Below are positions 12,823 to 35,089 of a stretch of 64,000 nucleotides of DNA, one piece after another. The notes beneath the pieces were generated by a model that saw only the letters and a list, made by a program, of their open reading frames with translations, did not search any database and was not told where the DNA came from. The stretch covers positions 372,001 through 436,000 of the forward strand of contig NZ_CADDWI010000009.1 in assembly GCF_902809845.1 (NCBI RefSeq). Direction: 5' to 3'. Each line of letters starts with the position of its first letter. Within the stretch, counting starts at the first letter, position 1. The position numbers were made by a program, and so were the translations under genes. Source of the stretch: Chelativorans sp. Marseille-P2723 (GTDB lineage Bacteria > Pseudomonadota > Alphaproteobacteria > Rhizobiales > Rhizobiaceae).

Positions 12823-12830
12823 CAGCAAGA

Positions 12831-14642
<1,812 letters not shown>

Positions 14643-14836
14643 TGCCTTGCTTTAACATATTGAGGAATATGACGAAACCGGTCCTTCTGCGCGAACAGGA
14701 TGATTGCAGTTCACGGGGGTTTCTCCACCGTAAACCACAGTACAAATTTCTTCACGTTTTCAAAGTACTGGCTCAGGTGCGAACCGACCTGGGGTCATCA
14801 GCACGCTTCTGGTTCGCGCCTGGCTCCGGGAGCGTC
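14643..14836 (-). promoter_or_regulatory. CRISPR leader region
   Basis: 194 bases between the cas2 stop and the first perfect repeat. It contains several A/T-rich patches (CTTTAACATATTGAGGAATA near 14650-14670 and ACAAATTTCTTCACGTTTTC near 14741-14761) and no gene. Its position defines it as the leader that should carry the array promoter and the Cas1-Cas2 integration signal. Confidence 0.75.
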
Positions 14837-15137: not shown

Positions 15138-16172
15138 CTACTTCCAGAACCAGGGCGGATAAGCATCAAGATCGCCACGCAGATGGCGTGCGAGAAGCTG
15201 GGCCTGAAGATATGGAACGAGTCCGAGGGGCGCAGTCTCTTCGATGAAGGGGTGACGGCGCTCCTCCCTCTTGCGCTCCTGCCACGCCTCCAAAACGGTC
15301 CGGCGGCCTTCCTCATTCAGAAAGACTGCGCCGCCGTCGCGAAATTCGAAATCCTTTTCGCGCAGCTGGCGCCGGTTGATAAGCGAGAGCGCAAGGCGGT
15401 CTGCAAGGACGGGGCGCAGCTCCTCCATGAGGTCGAGCGCCAATGAAGGACGTCCCGGCCGGTCCCGATGCAGAAAACCAACGGCCGGATCAAGGCCAAC
15501 ACTCTCCGAAGCGCTTCGGCAATCATGCGTTAGCAGCGTGTAGAGGAAGGAAAGAAGAGCGTTCACCGGGTCAAGCGGCGGGCGGCGCGAGCGGCCGCCG
15601 AAGCGAAGGCTGGCATCCGGCGAGCGGAGCAGATGTCCGAACACGCTGAAGTAAAGATTGGCGGCTTCTCCTTCCGTCCCGCGCAGGAATTCAGCCGGAT
15701 CGTTTCCTAGGCCGACCCGTCGCACTATCCGTGCCATCCTCTCGACCACAGCCTCTATGGCGCAGCGAGCATCGGAGGGAAATTCCGGACCATAGTCACG
15801 GAGCGCGCGCATCAGAACCGCGCGTTGATTAGAGATCTTTCCGGTCACGAGACTGCGAACGATCTCGTCGGGAGCGTCCGATGCGCGGTACTGTGCCCGG
15901 CGCAGGAGAACGTTGCCCGCAACGGGTCCCTCGACACGCGCCTGAAAGCGCCCGACGCGGTCGAGAAGCACGATCGTGATGCCAGCCGCCGCACAGGCCC
16001 GAAGGAGAGGCGGCGATATATGGATCGCGCCGAAGGTGACGACCGAAGCCAGCATGTGGAAAGGGACGCGCGCCTTCTCCACACCATCTACCTCCGCGAC
16101 GAAATTTTCGCCGTCCTTGCGCAAGGCCGCTCCTTCGGTGGTGATGTAAATGGTGTTGAGAAGCTTCTTCAA
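15138..16172 (-). CDS. cas1: CRISPR integrase Cas1 (type I-C)
   Basis: 344 residues. The start is taken as TTG 16172: it overlaps the cas4 stop as TTGA, has GGGGAGGG seven bases upstream, and gives the normal I-C beginning '[14 protein letters not shown]'. An upstream ATG (16259) lies within cas4. The catalytic metal site is visible as Glu in GTEGEAANLYF, His in AVGFLHRDRPG and Asp/Glu in LALDLMEELRP. Cas1 cuts and joins new spacers at the leader-proximal repeat. It is translationally coupled to cas4, which fits the known Cas4-Cas1 partnership in I-C systems for selecting PAM-bearing prespacers. Confidence 0.97.
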   Translation of the reverse strand: MKKLLNTIYITTEGAALRKDGENFVAEVDGVEKARVPFHMLASVVTFGAIHISPPLLRACAAAGITIVLLDRVGRFQARVEGPVAGNVLLRRAQYRASDAPDEIVRSLVTGKISNQRAVLMRALRDYGPEFPSDARCAIEAVVERMARIVRRVGLGNDPAEFLRGTEGEAANLYFSVFGHLLRSPDASLRFGGRSRRPPLDPVNALLSFLYTLLTHDCRSASESVGLDPAVGFLHRDRPGRPSLALDLMEELRPVLADRLALSLINRRQLREKDFEFRDGGAVFLNEEGRRTVLEAWQERKREERRHPFIEETAPLGLVPYLQAQLLARHLRGDLDAYPPWFWK

Positions 16173-16861
16173 ACGGAACCCTCCCCTTCCGTCAGGCTCG
16201 CCTCGACCATCCTGTCGCGCCATGCGCGCGCGGGCCTTGCGGAGGCCTTCGGCCGGCACAGATCAATCAGCGAGCAGGAGCGGCAGCGCTTGGCGAGAAG
16301 GATTGGCGGGGGCGTTACGAGCGTTCGGAAAATTTCGCGCAGGTCCGCTGCGGTCTCTTCCGTCAGCCGTCGCAAATCCTCGTCAAAGGGAACAGAAACG
16401 CGGCGCTTGGTCTCGGCATAATAAAGAGCGCCTTCGGGCACGGCGCGCCCGGTCATTTCCTCCAGGCAAAGTCCCTGCGCGCAAAGCTGCACCTCGTCAG
16501 CGCGGTGCAGCTTGGGTCTTCCCCGCTTGATCTCGATGGGATAGGGGGTTTCATCCTCACCATGGAATTCGACAAGATCGGCAACACCGGCGATCCAAAG
16601 CCGCTTCGAAGCGATCGGCAAGGCGGCCACGCGCCTAATACCGCGCACTTTGCGCCGGCCTGGTCTGTCGGCGGCCTGATGCAGCACGCGCCCCTCCGCA
16701 GTGAAGCGGTTTTCCGCCCATAGCCTTTCGAGATGGATGAGTGCGGCCTGGCGGAGGCAATAGACAGCGTGCTGGAGCGCCGAGATGGGGATGGGCTCGG
16801 CATCCAGTTGATCATCCAGAGGATTCGGGACCACCCCCTTCAAAGCTTTACAGCTTCTCAA
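16169..16861 (-). CDS. cas4: CRISPR-associated exonuclease Cas4
   Basis: RecB-family nuclease with an iron-sulfur cluster. The cluster ligands are seen as Cys in HAVYCLRQ near the N-terminus and [10 protein letters not shown] near the C-terminus. Nuclease residues are in GVADLVEF (Asp) and [11 protein letters not shown] (Glu and Lys). Cas4 trims prespacers and fixes orientation with Cas1-Cas2. The start is uncertain: the frame opens with TTG 16861, overlapping cas7 by 14 bases. A TTG at 16843, or a GTG right after AAGGGGG, is possible and would change only the first few residues. Confidence 0.95.
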
Positions 16862-17723
16862 TGACTACAACGCCCTTTGGAAGGTTCTCCTGGTTGATCG
16901 TTATAATGTAATCTGAGAAACTGCGCGGCAGCGATGCGTTCTCTTTTCGCTGCACGGCAACCCGTTTGAATAGATCCTGGGCCGACGCATTGCCCATCCG
17001 ATTGTCGTGTTTGAAGACAATCAACCTTTGAGCATTCATCTCCATTCTGGCAGCAGATCGATCATGCTCAAACATGTTGGTGAGCGCCTCGAACAACAGG
17101 TTAAGGTCCTCTTCCGAGAATCCGGTACCCTTCGTTTCATCACCGGCAAGACTAGCCGAGACAAACCCGTGACAGCGGTAAAGCCCATAAGGAATGATGT
17201 ATTTGCGCCCCATGGTGCGTTCTTTCTCGACGTCCTTTTCGTTAGTTACTGATGAACGCGTGATGGTGATTTCCTGCGGGATCACCGGGTCGATCGATTG
17301 CGCAAATCCGAGTTGCACCGGCCCTCGCACCTGACCGGCGTTGACCTCCGTGGTCATCACTGCACCGAATGTACGCACATCGTAGAAGTTTGTGCACATC
17401 CACCGGGTGATCTCGCGCGCCTCGGCCTCGTCTTTGGGAAGCTTTTTCGTTTCAGGCTTGATGCCAAGTGCATCGTAGGCCCTCTGGTGCTGAAGATTCA
17501 GTATTGCCTTTTCCTGCATGTAGATGGCGTAGGGCGGTCCGCCTCCCTTGGCCAACTGTACATAATTGCGGATCTTACGCTTGAGGCTGACGTCGGTGAC
17601 CAGACCCTTCTGAGTATCCAGGTCCTGGCGCGGCATGTTTCCGCTATCCGGGTCGCCGTTAGGATTGCCATTTATGATGTCAAAGAGGTAGACAAAGTCA
17701 TAGCGGTTTTGGATGGCGGCCAT
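16848..17723 (-). CDS. cas7: Type I-C Cascade backbone protein Cas7 (Csd2)
   Basis: 291 residues from ATG 17723, chosen because GAGGAG lies eight bases before it; a GTG at 17732 overlapping the cas8c stop is the alternative. The N-terminus [19 protein letters not shown] and [16 protein letters not shown] are the classic Csd2/Cas7 signatures (RAMP fold with crRNA-binding residues). Multiple copies form the filament that coats the spacer part of crRNA. A middle segment with [18 protein letters not shown] is also typical. Lies between cas8c and cas4. Confidence 0.97.
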
Positions 17724-17728
17724 ATCAA

Positions 17729-19600
17729 TCACTCCTCGCCCGTAAGATCCATGTCTTCGTTGTTCTCGGCGTTGTCTGCTGCTGTGTCCTTGGAACCGTA
17801 GCGTTCCTGGTAGTAGCCAATCAGGAAAAGGCCCTGCTCCTCAGCGGAAAGTTGTTGAGGAAATCCATCTGCAAAGCTGGCCGTTAGCAGTCCGATGTCC
17901 CGCTCCAGCGACGAAGCAAGCCTTCTGGCATGCTCAGTATCCTTGACCCAATCTGCAGCCGAATGCCCGTTGCGCAGCCGCTTAATATGATGATTTCGGG
18001 CATTGCGGATCAGGTGATGCAAAACCCGCCCTGGAGTTGCGGATGCCGCACCGAGGAATTTATCGGCCACTGTCACATTGAGTTCACCACCGAGCGCAGC
18101 GCTCTGCGCTCGCTCTATAAGCGCGAAGAGCCGGCCGAGACGTCTGGCGGGGCTTGGATCGTCGGGATCGAAGCGCATCAGATATTCCTCCATGGGGCTT
18201 CCATCAGCGGAAAGGGGAAGGCGTTTGTCGAAACGCAGAATGCGCGTTATGACAGCCTTGATAAGTGCCGCTCGCATATGGTCGAGGACGCCGTCACTGC
18301 GCACGCGCATAAGAAGAAGCGACAGCAATGATGATGGGAATTTGCTGCCGGTAAGAATTGCGCGCAGCAGTTCACCTGCAAGAAGCGGGGAGATTCTGTC
18401 TGGATCGAACTGAAGCTTTCCGGATTTGCTATCGCGCGATGCCGGCGCCGTACGCAGTTCACATCGTCGGATAGACGGCAATGAGGTGTTCGACGGAGAC
18501 GGCTCTAACAAAATATCCTGGTAATAGTCCTGCATATTCTCCGCCAGCCGGCCGAAATCGTCCTCGAACCAGAAGCGAATGGACAGGCGCGCCGCGTTGG
18601 GAGCAAGGCCCAGCACATAGAAGCGTACGCTTGTGGCCAGGCGTGGTGCGATCTCCCTGAGCGGGACGCCCCTTCGCATGCGTTTCAGGATCGTGCCGAC
18701 CTTCTGCGCTTCGCTTTCCTCGTCCACCTCGCTGAACATGGCAAGGACAAGGCTTTCCGCTTCCTTCGCCGTATCGTCATCCGGTGCTACAGCCCAGAAA
18801 ACCGTCGAGGTGTCACCGATCTGCAGCCGATGATTGCTGCTTGCGAGAAGTGCGTTGAGAGCTGCTGTGTATTTGAACGCGGCGAACTCGGAGACCGGTG
18901 AATTGTCGCCCTGGCTGTGGCCATAGGAGGTAAAGGCGTCGAGGTTGAACGATACGATGGAGGCGCCAGAGGATTGCGCTCCCCATACGCCCTTAATCGC
19001 GGGATGCAGCCGTGCGACCGGACCGCGCACGCCGGAAACGAGACAGACCTGCGGCCGTCCCTCATTTGACGAGGCGATCTGCGCCCACAGCTCCTTCGCT
19101 GCCGGCCGGTCATGCAAATAGCAATTCTGCCGCCGCTCGCTTTCAAGAGCGAAGACGACGTTCTGGTCCTTCATATCGTCGGGCCAAAGCGGTTCTGTAA
19201 ACTTGTCGGGGGTCCAGCTCTCGAGGAACAGGCGAAGGGCTTTAAGGCCGGTGTCAGCGGTTGTTTCGAGAGTTTCAAGATGACGCTGCTTGAAGGCGGC
19301 GTGTTCGTCAGCCACGCGCTTTCCTTCTCCGGCGGTGACACCCAATACATAGGATGTCTTGTCCCATAGAAAATTCGGAGTGATTGCTACAGTCCGCTTT
19401 ACCGGTTGCGGAACCTCCATCATGCGAGATGTTTTCCTCTTTCCCTCGCCGCTGCGAAGGTCGGTGACGCTTGCCACGCTGCCATCCTCGTTGAGAGAGA
19501 TGACGAAGCCGATCCTTTCCGAAGAAAAGCCGAAAGGCGGAACCATCCCCAGCCGGTCGAGCCGGTCATAGGCCTGGACGAGGGCGGCAAGAATGCTCAT
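17729..19600 (-). CDS. cas8c: Type I-C large subunit Cas8c (Csd1)
   Basis: 623 residues from ATG 19600, which overlaps the cas5 stop as ATGA; the longer open frame to 19708 lies inside cas5. Recognisable Csd1 features include the N-terminal [13 protein letters not shown], the repeated pattern [32 protein letters not shown], and a helical C-terminal domain with [21 protein letters not shown]. Cas8c recognises the PAM. In I-C systems an internal start in this gene also makes the small subunit Cas11, which would fall in the C-terminal helical part here. Acidic C-terminus (DMDLTGEE). Confidence 0.97.
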
Positions 19601-20292
19601 CTGAGAATCTCCGCTGATCCTGGCGCAGGCACCCGCATGACGCCATCCACAAGCCGCGCGCGGAAGAAGAGAGAGGGACGGTCCTCCGCCTGATGGTCGA
19701 TATCCCACAGCATGAAGCCCAGATCTCTGGGATGGCCAAAGCCGAGCTCAGCGCTTTCCTCTTCAGCCTGCGGCAGAGGTGCATCGGGCGGCAGAAGCGA
19801 AAAGCTGGCATCAAACTCGCGCGTGCCCAGACAGGGCTGGTGAAAGCATTGCCCGCGCCCGGCACGGCGGTTAAAAATATCCAGATGCTTGCCTTCGTTA
19901 TCGTCTGAGCCAGCTCTTTCTCGGACAATTTCGAAATGCGCCTCAATGACATAGGAGACATCAACGAGTACCGTTGCCGCGCGCTGCTGGCGGTTTTCCT
20001 CGACGAGCAGGTGCAGCCCCTCCAGACTGCCGCGCCTCATCGCCGTTTTCGCCTTCGTCGCGGGTACTTTCCCGCCCACCTCGTTGCGCCGGATTGATTG
20101 GAAGCGGATCGGTTTCAGGACATGGATGGCGTCAATGACCCAGCGGATGGCCGGCTTCCAGTGGATTGCCTCGAGAATCCCGCGCGCCGCGGAAGGTGTC
20201 ATCACATCATAGGAGACGCGCTCGACCTTCATCTCCGGACGTGTGAAACACGCGTATTTGCCTGAAACCTGCAGGCGAATTCCGTATGCCAA
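19597..20292 (-). CDS. cas5c: Type I-C pre-crRNA endonuclease Cas5 (Cas5d/Cas5c)
   Basis: 231 residues. Starts MAYGIRLQVSGKYACFTRPEMKVERVSY, the Cas5c N-terminus, with SAARGILEAIHWKPAIRW following, a hallmark of the family. In I-C systems there is no Cas6, and Cas5 cuts the repeat hairpin and stays bound to the 5' handle, so this gene is essential for crRNA. Gly/Phe-rich loops and basic residues for repeat binding are present. It is coupled to cas8c by ATGA and follows the broken GIY-YIG gene by 28 bases. Confidence 0.96.
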   Translation of the reverse strand: MAYGIRLQVSGKYACFTRPEMKVERVSYDVMTPSAARGILEAIHWKPAIRWVIDAIHVLKPIRFQSIRRNEVGGKVPATKAKTAMRRGSLEGLHLLVEENRQQRAATVLVDVSYVIEAHFEIVRERAGSDDNEGKHLDIFNRRAGRGQCFHQPCLGTREFDASFSLLPPDAPLPQAEEESAELGFGHPRDLGFMLWDIDHQAEDRPSLFFRARLVDGVMRVPAPGSAEILR

Positions 20293-20320
20293 TGTTGCCC
20301 CCGATCCTTGAGCGATTTGA

Positions 20321-22930
<2,610 letters not shown>

Positions 22931-31603: not shown

Positions 31604-32421
31604 CGCAGCACCCACCTCAAAACGTCGACGGCGAGGTGGCAGGATATCGGCCGTACCGGCCAGGCATACCGCGGCGATACTGGCAGCGCCGGCATTCTCC
31701 TGACGCAGAAGCAGGAGCTAGCACTCTGCTGTCATCCTCCCCCCAGCGCATCGTATTAAAAAGCTGCAAATCTCCGGCTGCCGCTTGGCAGCGTGCAAAT
31801 TTTCTCTTCATCGTATATCTCCACCGGGTCAACGGTGGCGGACCCGGAAATCAGAACCGATACTAGTGTGGTTTTGGATTTCCGGCCCCCGGTCGACGGC
31901 CTTGCAGCCGCGCCAGGGCTAGATGAATGCGAGGAGACTTCCCGCGTGATTAAGAAATCTCACGCGGCTCCTTGATATGCATCGATGGAAACGCTCTTTG
32001 AACACCAAATTCAAACCATCGAAGGGAAATCAGCGCTGTAGACAATATCATCTTTGCCGTGGGTTGCAAGATTATGGCTGCACAAGCACCAGTGGTTCGC
32101 GCAATCAGTTCGCTGCCTAACGCCGCTATGCACACCTTGAACCGCATTGCAGCATGGAGACTGCGACGAAGTGCAGCGTCGTCGTTTGACGCGCTTCCAC
32201 TTACATCATTGTCGCGTTAGTGCCGGCAAAGCGATAGATGTGGGCGGGCGCCTTGAATTTCAGGGTTTGACCGCAGATGACAATCAATGGGAAAAGCCCG
32301 CTTTCCCGGGCAGCAATGGAGCCTCCCAAATCGGTCCAGTTTCTGCTATGGTCGAGGGAGAATGATCGGGATCGGATAATGCGGGACTTTATCATCCGTA
32401 ACAAGCTGGTTTTTCGCGCAG
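31604..32421. other. Long intergenic region without a supported gene
   Basis: About 800 bases. Several 60-75 codon frames on both strands have no ribosome site, coding bias or motif. It should contain the dadA promoter at its left end and the promoter of the structured leader at its right end, where GGATAAT (about 32374) is a possible -10. Confidence 0.45.
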
Positions 32422-32496
32422 GCCGCCTGATGGCAGGCGGCTAACCCCTGGCACGGCGTCAAGGAGACGCACGCCAGAGCCAGGGGGCAACTCCTT
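32422..32496 (+). ncRNA. Structured leader or small RNA with hairpins and a potential pseudoknot
   Basis: Three nested or adjacent stems can be drawn. GCCGCCTG/CAGGCGGC spans 32422-32441 with loop ATGG. CCCCTGGC/GCCAGGGG pairs 32445-32452 with 32479-32486. Inside it GCGTC/GACGC pairs 32456-32460 with 32466-32470. The inner loop AAGGA (32461-32465) is exactly complementary to TCCTT (32492-32496) just 3' of the outer stem, so an H-type pseudoknot is possible. The loop also resembles a ribosome-binding sequence and TCCTT an anti-SD. It ends 64 bases before the ATG of the Rnk-like gene. No match to a known family is claimed. Confidence 0.55.
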
Positions 32497-32560
32497 TAAA
32501 TGTAAAGCGGATCTAACCCATTACATTCTATGCGGCGTCACGGTGTGGCGGAGAAGTGTC

Positions 32561-33091
32561 ATGTCCAGCACCCCTCGTTGTCATCTGACGGCGAAGGATT
32601 TCAGTATCCTCGAAGATATCCAGCAGCGTGGCCTCAACAACGATGAAGCGTTTCTTCGTCTGTTGCGCCAGAAATTGGAGAGCGCGGCCATACAGGACGA
32701 CATTGGGGCGGATGTCGCGACCATCAATAGTGTTGTCGACTTCTCGGTCGACGCTCGGACGAATGAGCGTCGCACCCTTACCTATGAAGGTGGGGATGCT
32801 GGAACCGGCGTGACGTTGCCGATTACGACACTCTGGGGGCTCGCCTTGTTCGGCCTGACTGCAGGTAAGGAAATCGCCATAGAGCGGCATGACGGCACGC
32901 GTGAGAAAATCCGGCTCAACGCGGTCTTTTTTCAGCCAGAAGGGGGACAGGGGCAGATGTCTCCGGCCAATCTCACCGGCCATTATACGAATGTCATCAG
33001 CTTTACGCCCCGCGAAAAAAGCCACACGCGACTACCCCTCAACGCACCATTCGAGCCAGATGACGATGACCCTGGCCCGCACGCTGCATAG
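32561..33091 (+). CDS. Rnk/GreA-family RNA polymerase-binding factor
   Basis: 176 residues from ATG 32561 (GGAGAAG upstream). A short N-terminal helical hairpin (LTAKDFSILEDIQQRG ... FLRLLRQKLESA) is followed by a GreA/GreB C-terminal FKBP-like domain: VVDFSVDARTNERRTLTYEG, TLPITTLWGLALFGLTAGKE. The tail is acidic (DDDDPGPHAA). Rnk-type proteins bind the RNA polymerase secondary channel or its vicinity, with a coiled coil too short to cleave RNA. The next gene encodes an RNA polymerase alpha subunit, which makes a functional link to transcription likely. The 5' leader is highly structured. Confidence 0.8.
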   Translation: MSSTPRCHLTAKDFSILEDIQQRGLNNDEAFLRLLRQKLESAAIQDDIGADVATINSVVDFSVDARTNERRTLTYEGGDAGTGVTLPITTLWGLALFGLTAGKEIAIERHDGTREKIRLNAVFFQPEGGQGQMSPANLTGHYTNVISFTPREKSHTRLPLNAPFEPDDDDPGPHAA

Positions 33092-33236
33092 GCCCGAGGA
33101 AATTTGCGCTTTCGATGACCGAGATCGCAGCGACCCCTATATTGGTCGCAGAGCTCACTGGATGAGGCGGGTGCAAGCTGGCGATTGCTAAACACAGCGA
33201 CACCGCCTTGACCACTTGTGTTGTATACGGAGATGG

Positions 33237-34259
33237 ATGAAGAACGTGTTTCAGAAGCACTGGCAGGAGTTGATCAAACCAAACAAGCCCGAAATTCGAA
33301 GCGACAACAACAGCACGACGCTGATTGTCGAGCCGCTCGAGCGTGGCTTCGGTTTCACTCTTGGGCATGCCTTGCGCCGCATACTCCTGTCCTCACTTGA
33401 CGGGGCTGCAGTGACGTCCTTGCGGCTTCAAGGCGGTCCTCTGAGCCTTGCGTCCCCGAAGGATCGGAATGAGGCGGTGACCGACCTGATCCTCAACATC
33501 AAGGATATCGCGCTTCGTATGGAAGCAGACATGCCTCCCACCCAGGTCACTTTGCGTAAGGAGGGACCGGGGACGGTTCTGGCCGGCGATCTTCAAACGG
33601 CTGCAGGAATTGAAGTCGTGAACCCCGAGCATCAGCTGTGCACGCTGGATGCCGGAAATGACATTGAGCTCGATCTGACGGTCGCCCACGGGACGGGTTA
33701 TCGGGCCGCGGGATCCATTGTACTGGAGGAATGGAACGGCTCCGAGCCTGTATCTATCGACGCGATCTTTTCTCCGATAAGGCAGGTCAAAATTAATGTG
33801 GAAAATACCCGGCAGGGACAGGTCCTCGACTACGACCGGCTGATCATGACGGTGGTGACCGACGGCACCATCTCGGGAGAGGATGCAGTCAACCGCGCCG
33901 CGCATATTTTCCACGATCAGCTTTCCGTGTTCATCAACTTCGAGGAAGTTCAGCCGGAGATTCCTGAGCCGGAGGAGGAACTGCCGTTCAATCCCATTCT
34001 TCTGAAGAAGATGGAAGATTTCGAACTATCGGTCCGAGCCAGCAACTGCATGAAGAATGACAACATCATCTATGTCGGCGATCTTGTTACCATGACAGAG
34101 GCGCAATTGCTCCGCGTTCCGAACTTCGGTCGGAAGTCGCTCAACGAGATCAAGACACTGCTGGCCGAAATGGGGCTTCAACTTGGGATGGAACTGCCCG
34201 ATTGGCCGCCTGCGGACCTGGAGGAGATGGCCGAAAAATATGCTAAGGAAGCAGATTAG
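33237..34259 (+). CDS. rpoA: Second, stand-alone RNA polymerase alpha subunit (RpoA paralogue)
   Basis: 340 residues, full length. ATG 33237 gives MKNVFQKHWQELIKPNKPEI, the alphaproteobacterial RpoA start. The N-terminal domain has GFGFTLGHALRRILLSSL with the Arg used for beta-subunit contact, but His where most have Asn. The usual HEFSSIPGVREDVTD loop is replaced by LSLASPKDRNEAVTD. The C-terminal domain keeps the DNA-contact elements VRASNCMKNDNIIYVGDL and LLRVPNFGRKSLNEIK. No ribosomal genes flank it, whereas housekeeping rpoA is in the rpsM-rpsK-rpoA-rplQ cluster. It follows an Rnk-like gene by 145 bases. It may form alternative polymerase with altered promoter or activator response. Confidence 0.93.
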   Translation: MKNVFQKHWQELIKPNKPEIRSDNNSTTLIVEPLERGFGFTLGHALRRILLSSLDGAAVTSLRLQGGPLSLASPKDRNEAVTDLILNIKDIALRMEADMPPTQVTLRKEGPGTVLAGDLQTAAGIEVVNPEHQLCTLDAGNDIELDLTVAHGTGYRAAGSIVLEEWNGSEPVSIDAIFSPIRQVKINVENTRQGQVLDYDRLIMTVVTDGTISGEDAVNRAAHIFHDQLSVFINFEEVQPEIPEPEEELPFNPILLKKMEDFELSVRASNCMKNDNIIYVGDLVTMTEAQLLRVPNFGRKSLNEIKTLLAEMGLQLGMELPDWPPADLEEMAEKYAKEAD

Positions 34260-34500
34260 TAATGCATCTGCTGGAAACTCCACTTGCCTGCGGGCAACAG
34301 GGCCATACCGATTAAGACGGTGCCTTTACGGCGCCTTGATGAGCACCTGGCGTTGTAGGCGGTGGGATATGGCAGCGGGCACATGGCAGTATGTGTGAAG
34401 ACTGAAGAATGAACATTTGGCCACAATCTGGAGGCATCTCTTGCCTCGCCGGTCAGTACTGGAACGCCGGCAGGAAATGCTTGTTTCAAGGAGGAGTGCA

Positions 34501-34686
34501 GTGTCTGTAGCGCAGTTCTGTCCATCCTGTTCTGGTCCCAGGGACCCGTCCTTTCATATTTGCACCTGGTGCAGACGCCCCTACACTACGCCAGCCGGAG
34601 TCCCGGAGCATCTTTTTGCACCTCCCTTGAGAAGCAGATCGCACGTTTTGGAGAAGCATCAATCGAAGGCCAAGGAGCTTTACTAG
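34501..34686 (+). CDS. Zinc-ribbon miniprotein (61 aa)
   Basis: GTG 34501 follows AAGGAGGA by seven bases, better supported than the longer frame from 34417. C7-x2-C10-x10-C21-x2-C24 (FCPSC ... ICTWC) forms a zinc ribbon, followed by AGVPE and a basic/polar tail. Cys spacing, the following GVPE/GIPE and overall length match the miniprotein at 26680. It lies 240 bases after rpoA2 and 50 bases before the channel-like gene on the same strand. Function unknown; a transcription-associated role is only suggested by the neighbours. Confidence 0.65.
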   Translation: MSVAQFCPSCSGPRDPSFHICTWCRRPYTTPAGVPEHLFAPPLRSRSHVLEKHQSKAKELY

Positions 34687-34735
34687 GTGCCTCAGCCACG
34701 TTGCCAAGCAGTCCAGATCGCGGCACCCGTCAGCC

Positions 34736-35089
34736 ATGTATGAGAGGACCTCGGAGAAAATCATTCCTCGCAACAGATTTGCCAGGCGGATGGCACAGCA
34801 CACTTTTCTGGTTGCAGCGATAATGTTCTTCTCGATACTGATTGGTGCCGCGGGCTTCATGTTGTTTGAAGGCCGCGCGCTGGAAGATGCGGTCATCCAC
34901 TCGGCCTACATCCTAAGCGGCTTCGGCCTGGTCGAGATGCCGGACAGCTTCGCAGGCAAACTGTTTGCTGGGCTTTATGGACTTTATGCAAGCCTGTTCT
35001 TCCTTGCGGCGTTCAGCATTATTTTCGCCCCCATCGTCCATCGCATCCTGCACAGGCTGCACCTCGACGTAGACGAAACCGCTGATTAG
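34736..35089 (+). CDS. Two-TM potassium-channel-like membrane protein with altered filter
   Basis: 117 residues. TM1 is about residues 24-44, a pore-helix-like segment with a loop (AVIHSAYILSGFGLVEMPDS) about 52-71, and TM2 about 75-101, ending in a basic, then acidic tail. This is the 2TM-plus-pore layout of small K+ channels. The filter position has SGFGLVE in place of TVGYGD, so ion selectivity is doubtful. The start at ATG 34736 has no clear ribosome site; ATG 34790 would cut into the first helix region. Part of the same-strand series after rpoA2. Confidence 0.65.
   Translation: MYERTSEKIIPRNRFARRMAQHTFLVAAIMFFSILIGAAGFMLFEGRALEDAVIHSAYILSGFGLVEMPDSFAGKLFAGLYGLYASLFFLAAFSIIFAPIVHRILHRLHLDVDETAD

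Follow-up and report, generated by a model that had tools for sequence, protein, structure and literature searches.

Why would a rhizobia-related soil bacterium with an ordinary rpoA gene among its ribosomal protein genes carry a second, strongly diverged one elsewhere? The question is raised by a locus of Chelativorans sp. Marseille-P2723, a member of the Rhizobiaceae, analyzed here in a window of 64,000 nucleotides (assembly GCF_902809845.1, contig NZ_CADDWI010000009.1, positions 372,001 to 436,000 of the forward strand; coordinates below are positions in this window). On the plus strand of the window, behind a gene for an Rnk-like factor, rpoA2 (33237..34259; ATG start, 340 amino acids) encodes a divergent second alpha subunit of RNA polymerase. 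This genome of the Chelativorans lineage carries a diverged second full-length alpha gene besides its normal rpoA, and we tentatively attribute an accessory role in transcription to the product, RpoA2.

A second full-length alpha subunit gene in two Chelativorans species

The genome from which the window was taken (3.77 Mb in 13 contigs) has two rpoA genes: a canonical copy in the order rpsM-rpsK-rpoA-rplQ (S13-S11-rpoA-L17) and rpoA2. A preliminary description of the locus, made from the sequence alone, had proposed a full-length second rpoA outside the ribosomal operon, and the count of two bears this out; the window gene is not the only rpoA of this genome. A second carrier is Chelativorans sp. 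J32. The gene for the beta subunit, rpoB, is single copy in both genomes, and neither contains a second beta subunit. RpoA2 scored 295.3 bits with TIGR02027 (cut-off, 227.8), and PF01193, PF01000, and PF03118 were all above their curated cut-offs, which places the dimerization, insert, and C-terminal domains in one protein. By these profiles and by its residues, RpoA2 is still a complete alpha subunit. It is 56% identical to the canonical RpoA of its own genome and 62% identical to the RpoA2 of J32. Its start is the ATG at 33237, preceded by GGAG, and not the TTG at 33216 given earlier.

The gene order in the window is Rnk-like gene, rpoA2, a zinc-ribbon gene, and a gene for a protein with two transmembrane (TM) segments. 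In J32 the Rnk-like gene is followed by a second rpsK (S11), then by rpoA2, and last by a gene judged by eye to be methionine-synthase-like. Both species have the Rnk-like gene linked to rpoA2, with 145 bp between them in the window, and in both a glutamate-dehydrogenase-type gene and a NUDIX gene lie upstream of this module. The dehydrogenase gene also occurs in three other genus members (G013, G014, and G015), where the stretches examined around it contain no Rnk-like gene and no rpoA2; in G013 and G015 an Rnk-like gene lies elsewhere in the genome.

RpoA2 diverges fast under purifying selection

The rpoA2 frames are open in both species. Between them, nonsynonymous divergence (dN) was 0.267 and synonymous divergence (dS) was 1.54, for a dN/dS of about 0.17, as obtained with our own script by a simple counting method and with dS near saturation. 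The canonical RpoA proteins of the same two species are 96% identical (dN, 0.027; dS, 0.89), and the dehydrogenase gene gave values of 0.089 and 1.25, respectively. RpoA2 thus has a dN about ten times that of canonical RpoA, and by these codon counts it is held by purifying selection.

A conserved beta-contact patch is replaced in RpoA2

We compared RpoA2 with canonical alphas at the 106 columns in which 147 canonical rows show conservation of 95% or more. The window protein deviates at 22 of these columns and the J32 protein at 23, with 17 deviations common to both, while the canonical rows had a median of 0 and maxima of 23 (L180) and 12. Both RpoA2 proteins have His in place of N41, a column with 145 N, 2 H, 3 T, and one gap among 151 rows; H66, E67, G73, V74, and D77 are also among the shared deviations. 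At columns 65-77 both proteins deviate at five of seven conserved columns, compared with 12 of 99 elsewhere (Fisher p 0.001); this segment was chosen after the alignment had been seen, although 65-75 is a published footprint. The protected footprints on E. coli alpha lie at 30-55 and 65-75 for beta and at 175-185 and 195-210 for beta' (from the portions of PMC3294249 drawn on here).

The replaced patch covers residues 64-81 of RpoA2 (33426..33479, plus strand; about 61-78 in E. coli by alignment), where canonical alphas have a IDGVLHEFSSIAGVREDV-type sequence. Segment identities, in E. coli positions, were referred to 1192 canonical pairs that are 55-70% identical. Over positions 61-78, each RpoA2 is 22% identical to its own canonical copy and the two RpoA2 proteins are 33% identical to each other; the canonical pairs had a median of 78% and a minimum of 50%, and none of the 1192 was as low as RpoA2. 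Identity to the own canonical copy over 65-75 was 9% and 18%, again with 0 of 1192 canonical pairs as low. Two features pointed out earlier in the window protein, the replaced loop and the change from N to H in the ALRR motif, recur in J32.

Many other residues are retained in RpoA2. They include the dimer residues F35, T38, L39, I46 (V in J32), S50, and Q227, and also K86; positions V173 and V180 are occupied by I or V, and R replaces K200. Domain 2 has diverged more than domain 1: identity in domain 1 minus that in domain 2 was 0.25 between the two RpoA2 proteins (a difference equaled or exceeded by 23 of 1192 canonical pairs) and 0.26 for the window protein and canonical alpha (by 18), both unusual values. 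The C-terminal domain (CTD) is the best-kept domain, at 80% identity between the two RpoA2 proteins. At 11 of its 26 deviating columns both species have the same new residue, and in the block 282-307 this is so at five of seven, including K286M and E290Q, which adjoin what we take to be the activator-contact face. The residues that presumably touch promoter DNA are retained in the alignments, as had been claimed for the window protein.

Origin and distribution of RpoA2

The window genome has one S11 gene and J32 has two. No second S11 was found in the window genome, and none of three frames between the Rnk-like gene and rpoA2 (33060 to about 33249) contained a remnant of rpsK. The extra S11 of J32 is 84% identical to the canonical S11 of the window genome. 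Its twelve top matches by identity are canonical S11 proteins of the same genus or family. A tree with poor resolution gives, as the nearest rows to this S11 by path, one from its own family and one from its own genus. In a free quick tree of alpha subunits, the two RpoA2 proteins cluster (full SH-aLRT support); their branch, 1.68 long, lies outside the canonical rows. Constraining them with 38 Rhizobiaceae-type rows (Aurantimonadaceae included) changed the log-likelihood by +16.8 relative to this tree (approximately unbiased test, p-AU 0.79), and constraining them with 15 of the 16 genus rows and one neighboring row changed it by +8.3 (p-AU 0.70); neither constraint demonstrates a clade, and neither is rejected. 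RpoA2 is 53-57% identical to canonical rows of the same family and 50-56% identical to those of other families of the order. The simplest history supported by these comparisons is a duplication of the rpsK-rpoA block within the Chelativorans/Rhizobiaceae lineage, with fast divergence of the alpha copy. The duplicate would have been placed behind an Rnk-like gene that had its own leader, and the copied rpsK would later have been lost in the window species.

Second rpoA genes were found in 2 of 16 genus genomes, those of the window species and J32. In a sample of 394 family genomes (E 1e-40; at most five candidates scored per genome; J32 not among the genomes drawn), three had two rpoA matches by a count made by eye: the window genome, G136, and G282. 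The last two were rejected as carriers of RpoA2, leaving the window genome as the only one in this sample with an RpoA2-type gene. G282 has a single gene, split across two contigs. G136 has a pair of canonical-like copies (55-56%), in an assembly contaminated at 4%. The two copies of this Rhizobiaceae assembly (on G136:C87 and G136:C10) may reflect contamination or duplication. Among 397 genomes of the order, searched at E 1e-126, 220 had a match and only the window genome had two; since the other 177 gave no match at this cut-off, weaker second alphas could escape this sample. Genome contigs were also scanned for relatives with two short peptide patterns. Among the best 80 of the 106 relatives obtained, S13 and/or L17 adjoin 79, as in the normal operon, and neither adjoins one, the J32 locus (L103). 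Because of the sample, cut-off, and two-pattern limits of these scans, they do not prove that RpoA2 is absent outside the genus. We found no publication on an rpoA duplication or paralog of Chelativorans in the open-licence PubMed Central literature.

Some rpoA gene is present in 87 of 72,556 plasmid records and in 19 of 50,697 phage records, in all cases at <60% identity, and three pattern-limited scans of viral contigs returned no relative. A phage or plasmid origin was rejected on these results. The 16.5-kb plasmid pBS5-3-2 of Yoonia sp. BS5-3 has a full-length rpoA frame of 389 amino acids (L033 14681-16428) that is missing from the PLSDB gene table; it overlaps the stop of a 193-amino-acid gene without a Pfam or PHROG match, and its product retains the 61-78 patch. 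This plasmid carries relaxase and mobC genes, yet it is typed as non-mobilizable. An rpoA match also occurred in 21 Streptomyces plasmid records. In the one inspected, from Streptomyces sp. NBC_01240 (L036 6013-7020), the rpoA gene has no adjoining ribosomal genes. Its product has 30 deviations at the 106 columns, but the reference set is proteobacterial, so this number is uninformative on function.

The Rnk-like gene and its leader

The gene upstream of rpoA2 (32561..33091, plus strand; ATG start with GGAG upstream) encodes a protein of 176 amino acids from a rhizobial family with a DDPGPxAA tail. The window and J32 proteins are 55% identical over 173 amino acids. A 22-row profile of the family matched the structures 2pn0 (E 1.7e-16) and 3bmb, which is E. 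coli Rnk (E 2.2e-15), and with the NCBIfam equivalog NF004396 the window protein scored 46 bits, below the cut-off of 109. The proposal of an Rnk-like gene ahead of rpoA2 agrees with the profile match, at a sub-threshold NCBIfam score. Unlike E. coli Rnk, which it resembles by profile, the window protein is longer, has the DDPGPxAA tail, is preceded by a leader open reading frame (ORF) and a hairpin, and falls below the NF004396 cut-off. We regard it as a putative secondary-channel binder, with predicted binding to RNA polymerase. The function of Rnk itself is given as unknown in the part of PMC4598747 drawn on here.

A candidate leader ORF of 21 codons (MRDFIIRNKLVFRAGRLMAGG, stop TAA; 32379..32444, plus strand; coding unproven) precedes the Rnk-like gene. 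Directly 3' of its stop is a hairpin with an inner stem, CCCCTGGC...GCCAGGGG (32445..32486, plus strand). The fold z-score was -2.8 in the window, where 3 of 200 shuffles folded equally well, and -2.1 in J32, in keeping with the structured leader that had been proposed. The 18-base core of the hairpin is identical in the two species, and J32 has a leader ORF of equal length at the equivalent place. We assembled 35 Rhizobiaceae loci, 30 from a search with the Rnk-like family and five from another search, with the window locus counted once. In 31 of these (the window, L193-L197, L199-L220, L072, L074, and L077), a short ORF, recognized by a peptide pattern chosen after inspecting the sequences, ends 0, 1, or 3 bases before the CCCCTG arm of a hairpin upstream of the Rnk-like gene. 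The pattern was negative in L192, L198, L075, and L076, and the hairpin is still present in L192 and L075. The usual ending of the leader ORF is CRLSLFGGCLIAGS, and that in the window is NKLVFRAGRLMAGG.

The stem is nearly invariant over 28 loci, with double changes in 2 of 10 pairs and a covariation term of 0; the window and J32 were excluded from this comparison because their inner stem differs. Differences in the leader ORF by codon position were 1788, 1593, and 2573, a mild excess at third positions. Rfam had no match for the window leader, and in five other loci it gave one chance-level hit elsewhere (E 1). The leader was also considered as a plasmid element, and no match was found. Together, the ORF and the CCCCTG...CAGGGG hairpin form a candidate translated leader. 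The Rnk-like family occurs in 65 of 247 family genomes (E 1e-14), and the hairpin is also found upstream of Rnk-like genes that have no rpoA2 behind them. Across Rhizobiaceae, this leader goes with the Rnk-like gene, and RpoA2 arrived behind it in Chelativorans.

Neighboring genes in the window

The zinc-ribbon miniprotein of 61 amino acids (34501..34686, plus strand; GTG start with AGGAGG) has a CxxC-x10-CxxC motif read by eye and matched Pfam families only below threshold. It is probably a gene, most likely starting at the GTG at 34501, without sign of membership in a module with rpoA2. The channel-like protein with two TM segments (34736..35089, plus strand; 117 amino acids) resembled a Kef-type K+ transporter in PHROG, but weakly (E 0.003). 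It occurs in 5 of 16 genus genomes, four of which lack a second rpoA, and J32, which has a second rpoA, lacks it; it is not a module member. At E 1e-12, no match to either gene was found in 19.9 kb around the J32 rpoA2, and the spread of the zinc-ribbon gene was not searched further. The preliminary description had included both genes in one cluster with rpoA2, and this membership is unsupported: the gene order recurs in J32 for the Rnk-like gene and rpoA2, but the joint occurrence of the two downstream genes does not. The window also contains an ordinary CRISPR array (12824-14657; ~28 repeats with a spacing of 65-67 bases), beside which are genes that by eye have the look of type I cas genes (about 15138-22930).

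Possible roles of RpoA2

Our tentative reading is that RpoA2 may be an accessory alpha that forms an oriented alpha1-alpha2 heterodimer with canonical alpha and alters the response of some promoters. Incorporation of RpoA2 into RNA polymerase is predicted, as the most economical reading of the sequences. RpoA2 would dimerize with ordinary alpha; because the conserved beta-contact patch is gone, it would be disfavored at the beta-binding position and sit mainly on the beta' side, a preference that is a guess from the lost patch. Its CTD, with the DNA-contact residues kept and changes common to both species, would alter the response to certain promoters or activators, and the Rnk-like factor would act in the same condition. 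We infer the heterodimer, its orientation, and the promoter effect from residue patterns. A specialized form of polymerase, one of two interpretations offered earlier, is the best supported because the gene pair occurs in two species, RpoA2 is under purifying selection, and it has lost the beta patch while retaining its dimer and DNA-binding residues and most single residues for assembly. Nothing found here backs the other, a decoy for a phage or host signal: the three pattern-limited viral scans were empty, and the phage matches are all at <60% identity.

Several observations weigh against this tentative reading. Replacement of R45 or L48 blocks or weakens beta binding in E. coli, and R45 is Gln in Francisella alpha2, according to the part of PMC3294249 used here; RpoA2 retains both residues (R45 corresponds to R48 in the window protein and is R in J32). 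The footprint 30-55 is 85% identical, an ordinary value for canonical pairs. Since the loss is confined to one patch and does not extend over the whole beta side, the orientation of RpoA2 is weakly supported. On the beta' side, the footprint 175-185 is 27% identical in the window protein (14 of 1192 pairs as low) and 55% in J32, and 195-210, at 63% and 56%, is ordinary. The difference between domains 1 and 2 for J32 RpoA2 and canonical alpha, 0.16, is not unusual (351 of 1192 as large), the 1192 canonical pairs are not independent, and there are only two RpoA2 sequences. Canonical alpha shows no acceleration. The Rnk-like gene and rpoA2 are 145 bp apart, and their cotranscription is putative.

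RpoA2 might instead be a duplicate that is redundant with an equivalent canonical alpha, or one that is slowly being lost, as its presence in two genus genomes, the loss of the extra rpsK from the window genome, and its fast evolution would allow. We consider this rather unlikely: a dN/dS this low over a long divergence, with frames open in both species, the same new residues at otherwise conserved sites, and retention behind the same Rnk-like gene all speak against it. Nor is RpoA2 likely to be an inhibitor that dimerizes with canonical alpha, takes beta poorly, and lowers core assembly when the locus is on. The lost beta-contact patch and the kept dimer residues are what such a titrating protein needs, but a pure assembly poison would not need a DNA-binding CTD, and here the CTD is the best-kept domain; R45 and the footprint 30-55 are also kept. 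Horizontal acquisition from another bacterial group or a mobile element, to which the very long branch outside the canonical rows and the existence of other rpoA genes on plasmids might point, is very unlikely in view of the Rhizobiaceae-type constraint, the 53-57% identity to canonical rows of the same family (50-56% for other families of the order), the resemblance of the extra S11 to those of its own genus and family, and the three pattern-limited viral scans, which were empty.

Comparison with known second alpha subunits

To our knowledge, Francisella is the one bacterium in which an RNA polymerase with two different alphas has been demonstrated. The polymerase of Francisella contains an alpha heterodimer, probably oriented, and as of 2011 was the only known bacterial one with two different alphas (PMC3294249, in the sections drawn on here, as for all comparisons in this paragraph). 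Besides Francisella, the same source names three Chloroflexus species and Streptomyces avermitilis as carriers of a second rpoA, and Psychromonas ingrahamii and Leptospira borgpetersenii as carriers of identical copies. The rarity claimed for a second full-length alpha holds within Chelativorans, although Francisella, Chloroflexus, and S. avermitilis are known to have one as well. As with Francisella RpoA1 and RpoA2, the Chelativorans genomes have two non-identical full-length alphas, one of them outside the ribosomal operon, with a lineage-specific duplication, fast evolution, and changes at beta-contact sites. In Francisella, however, both copies are accelerated, alpha2 lacks R45, and the pair is genus-wide in sequenced members (PMC3294249), whereas in Chelativorans the acceleration is confined to the second copy, which keeps R45 and has changes at N41 and in the patch 61-78, and the gene is found in a minority of the genus and behind an Rnk-like gene. 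Chloroflexus and S. avermitilis likewise have a second full-length rpoA. The source reports no drastic substitutions in the dimer or beta/beta' regions of the Chloroflexus proteins, and a fairly recent duplication in S. avermitilis (PMC3294249); in RpoA2, by contrast, the beta patch is replaced.

A more far-reaching version of our reading, which we hold to be doubtful, is that the window species has two core enzymes. One would contain the ordinary alpha homodimer. The other would be facultative, with an oriented alpha1-alpha2 pair in which the beta'-side alpha no longer has the beta-contact patch, and a translated leader would control its induction together with that of a dedicated factor for the secondary channel. 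If true, this would be a recent move, made independently, towards the asymmetry of Rpb3 and Rpb11 in archaea and eukaryotes. With an ordinary and an accessory alpha in one free-living relative of rhizobia, genetics could tell apart the roles of the two alpha positions, since deletion of the accessory gene would probably leave the essential rpoA untouched. Such a bacterium would also illustrate, at an early stage, how the asymmetric alpha pairs of archaea and eukaryotes can begin.

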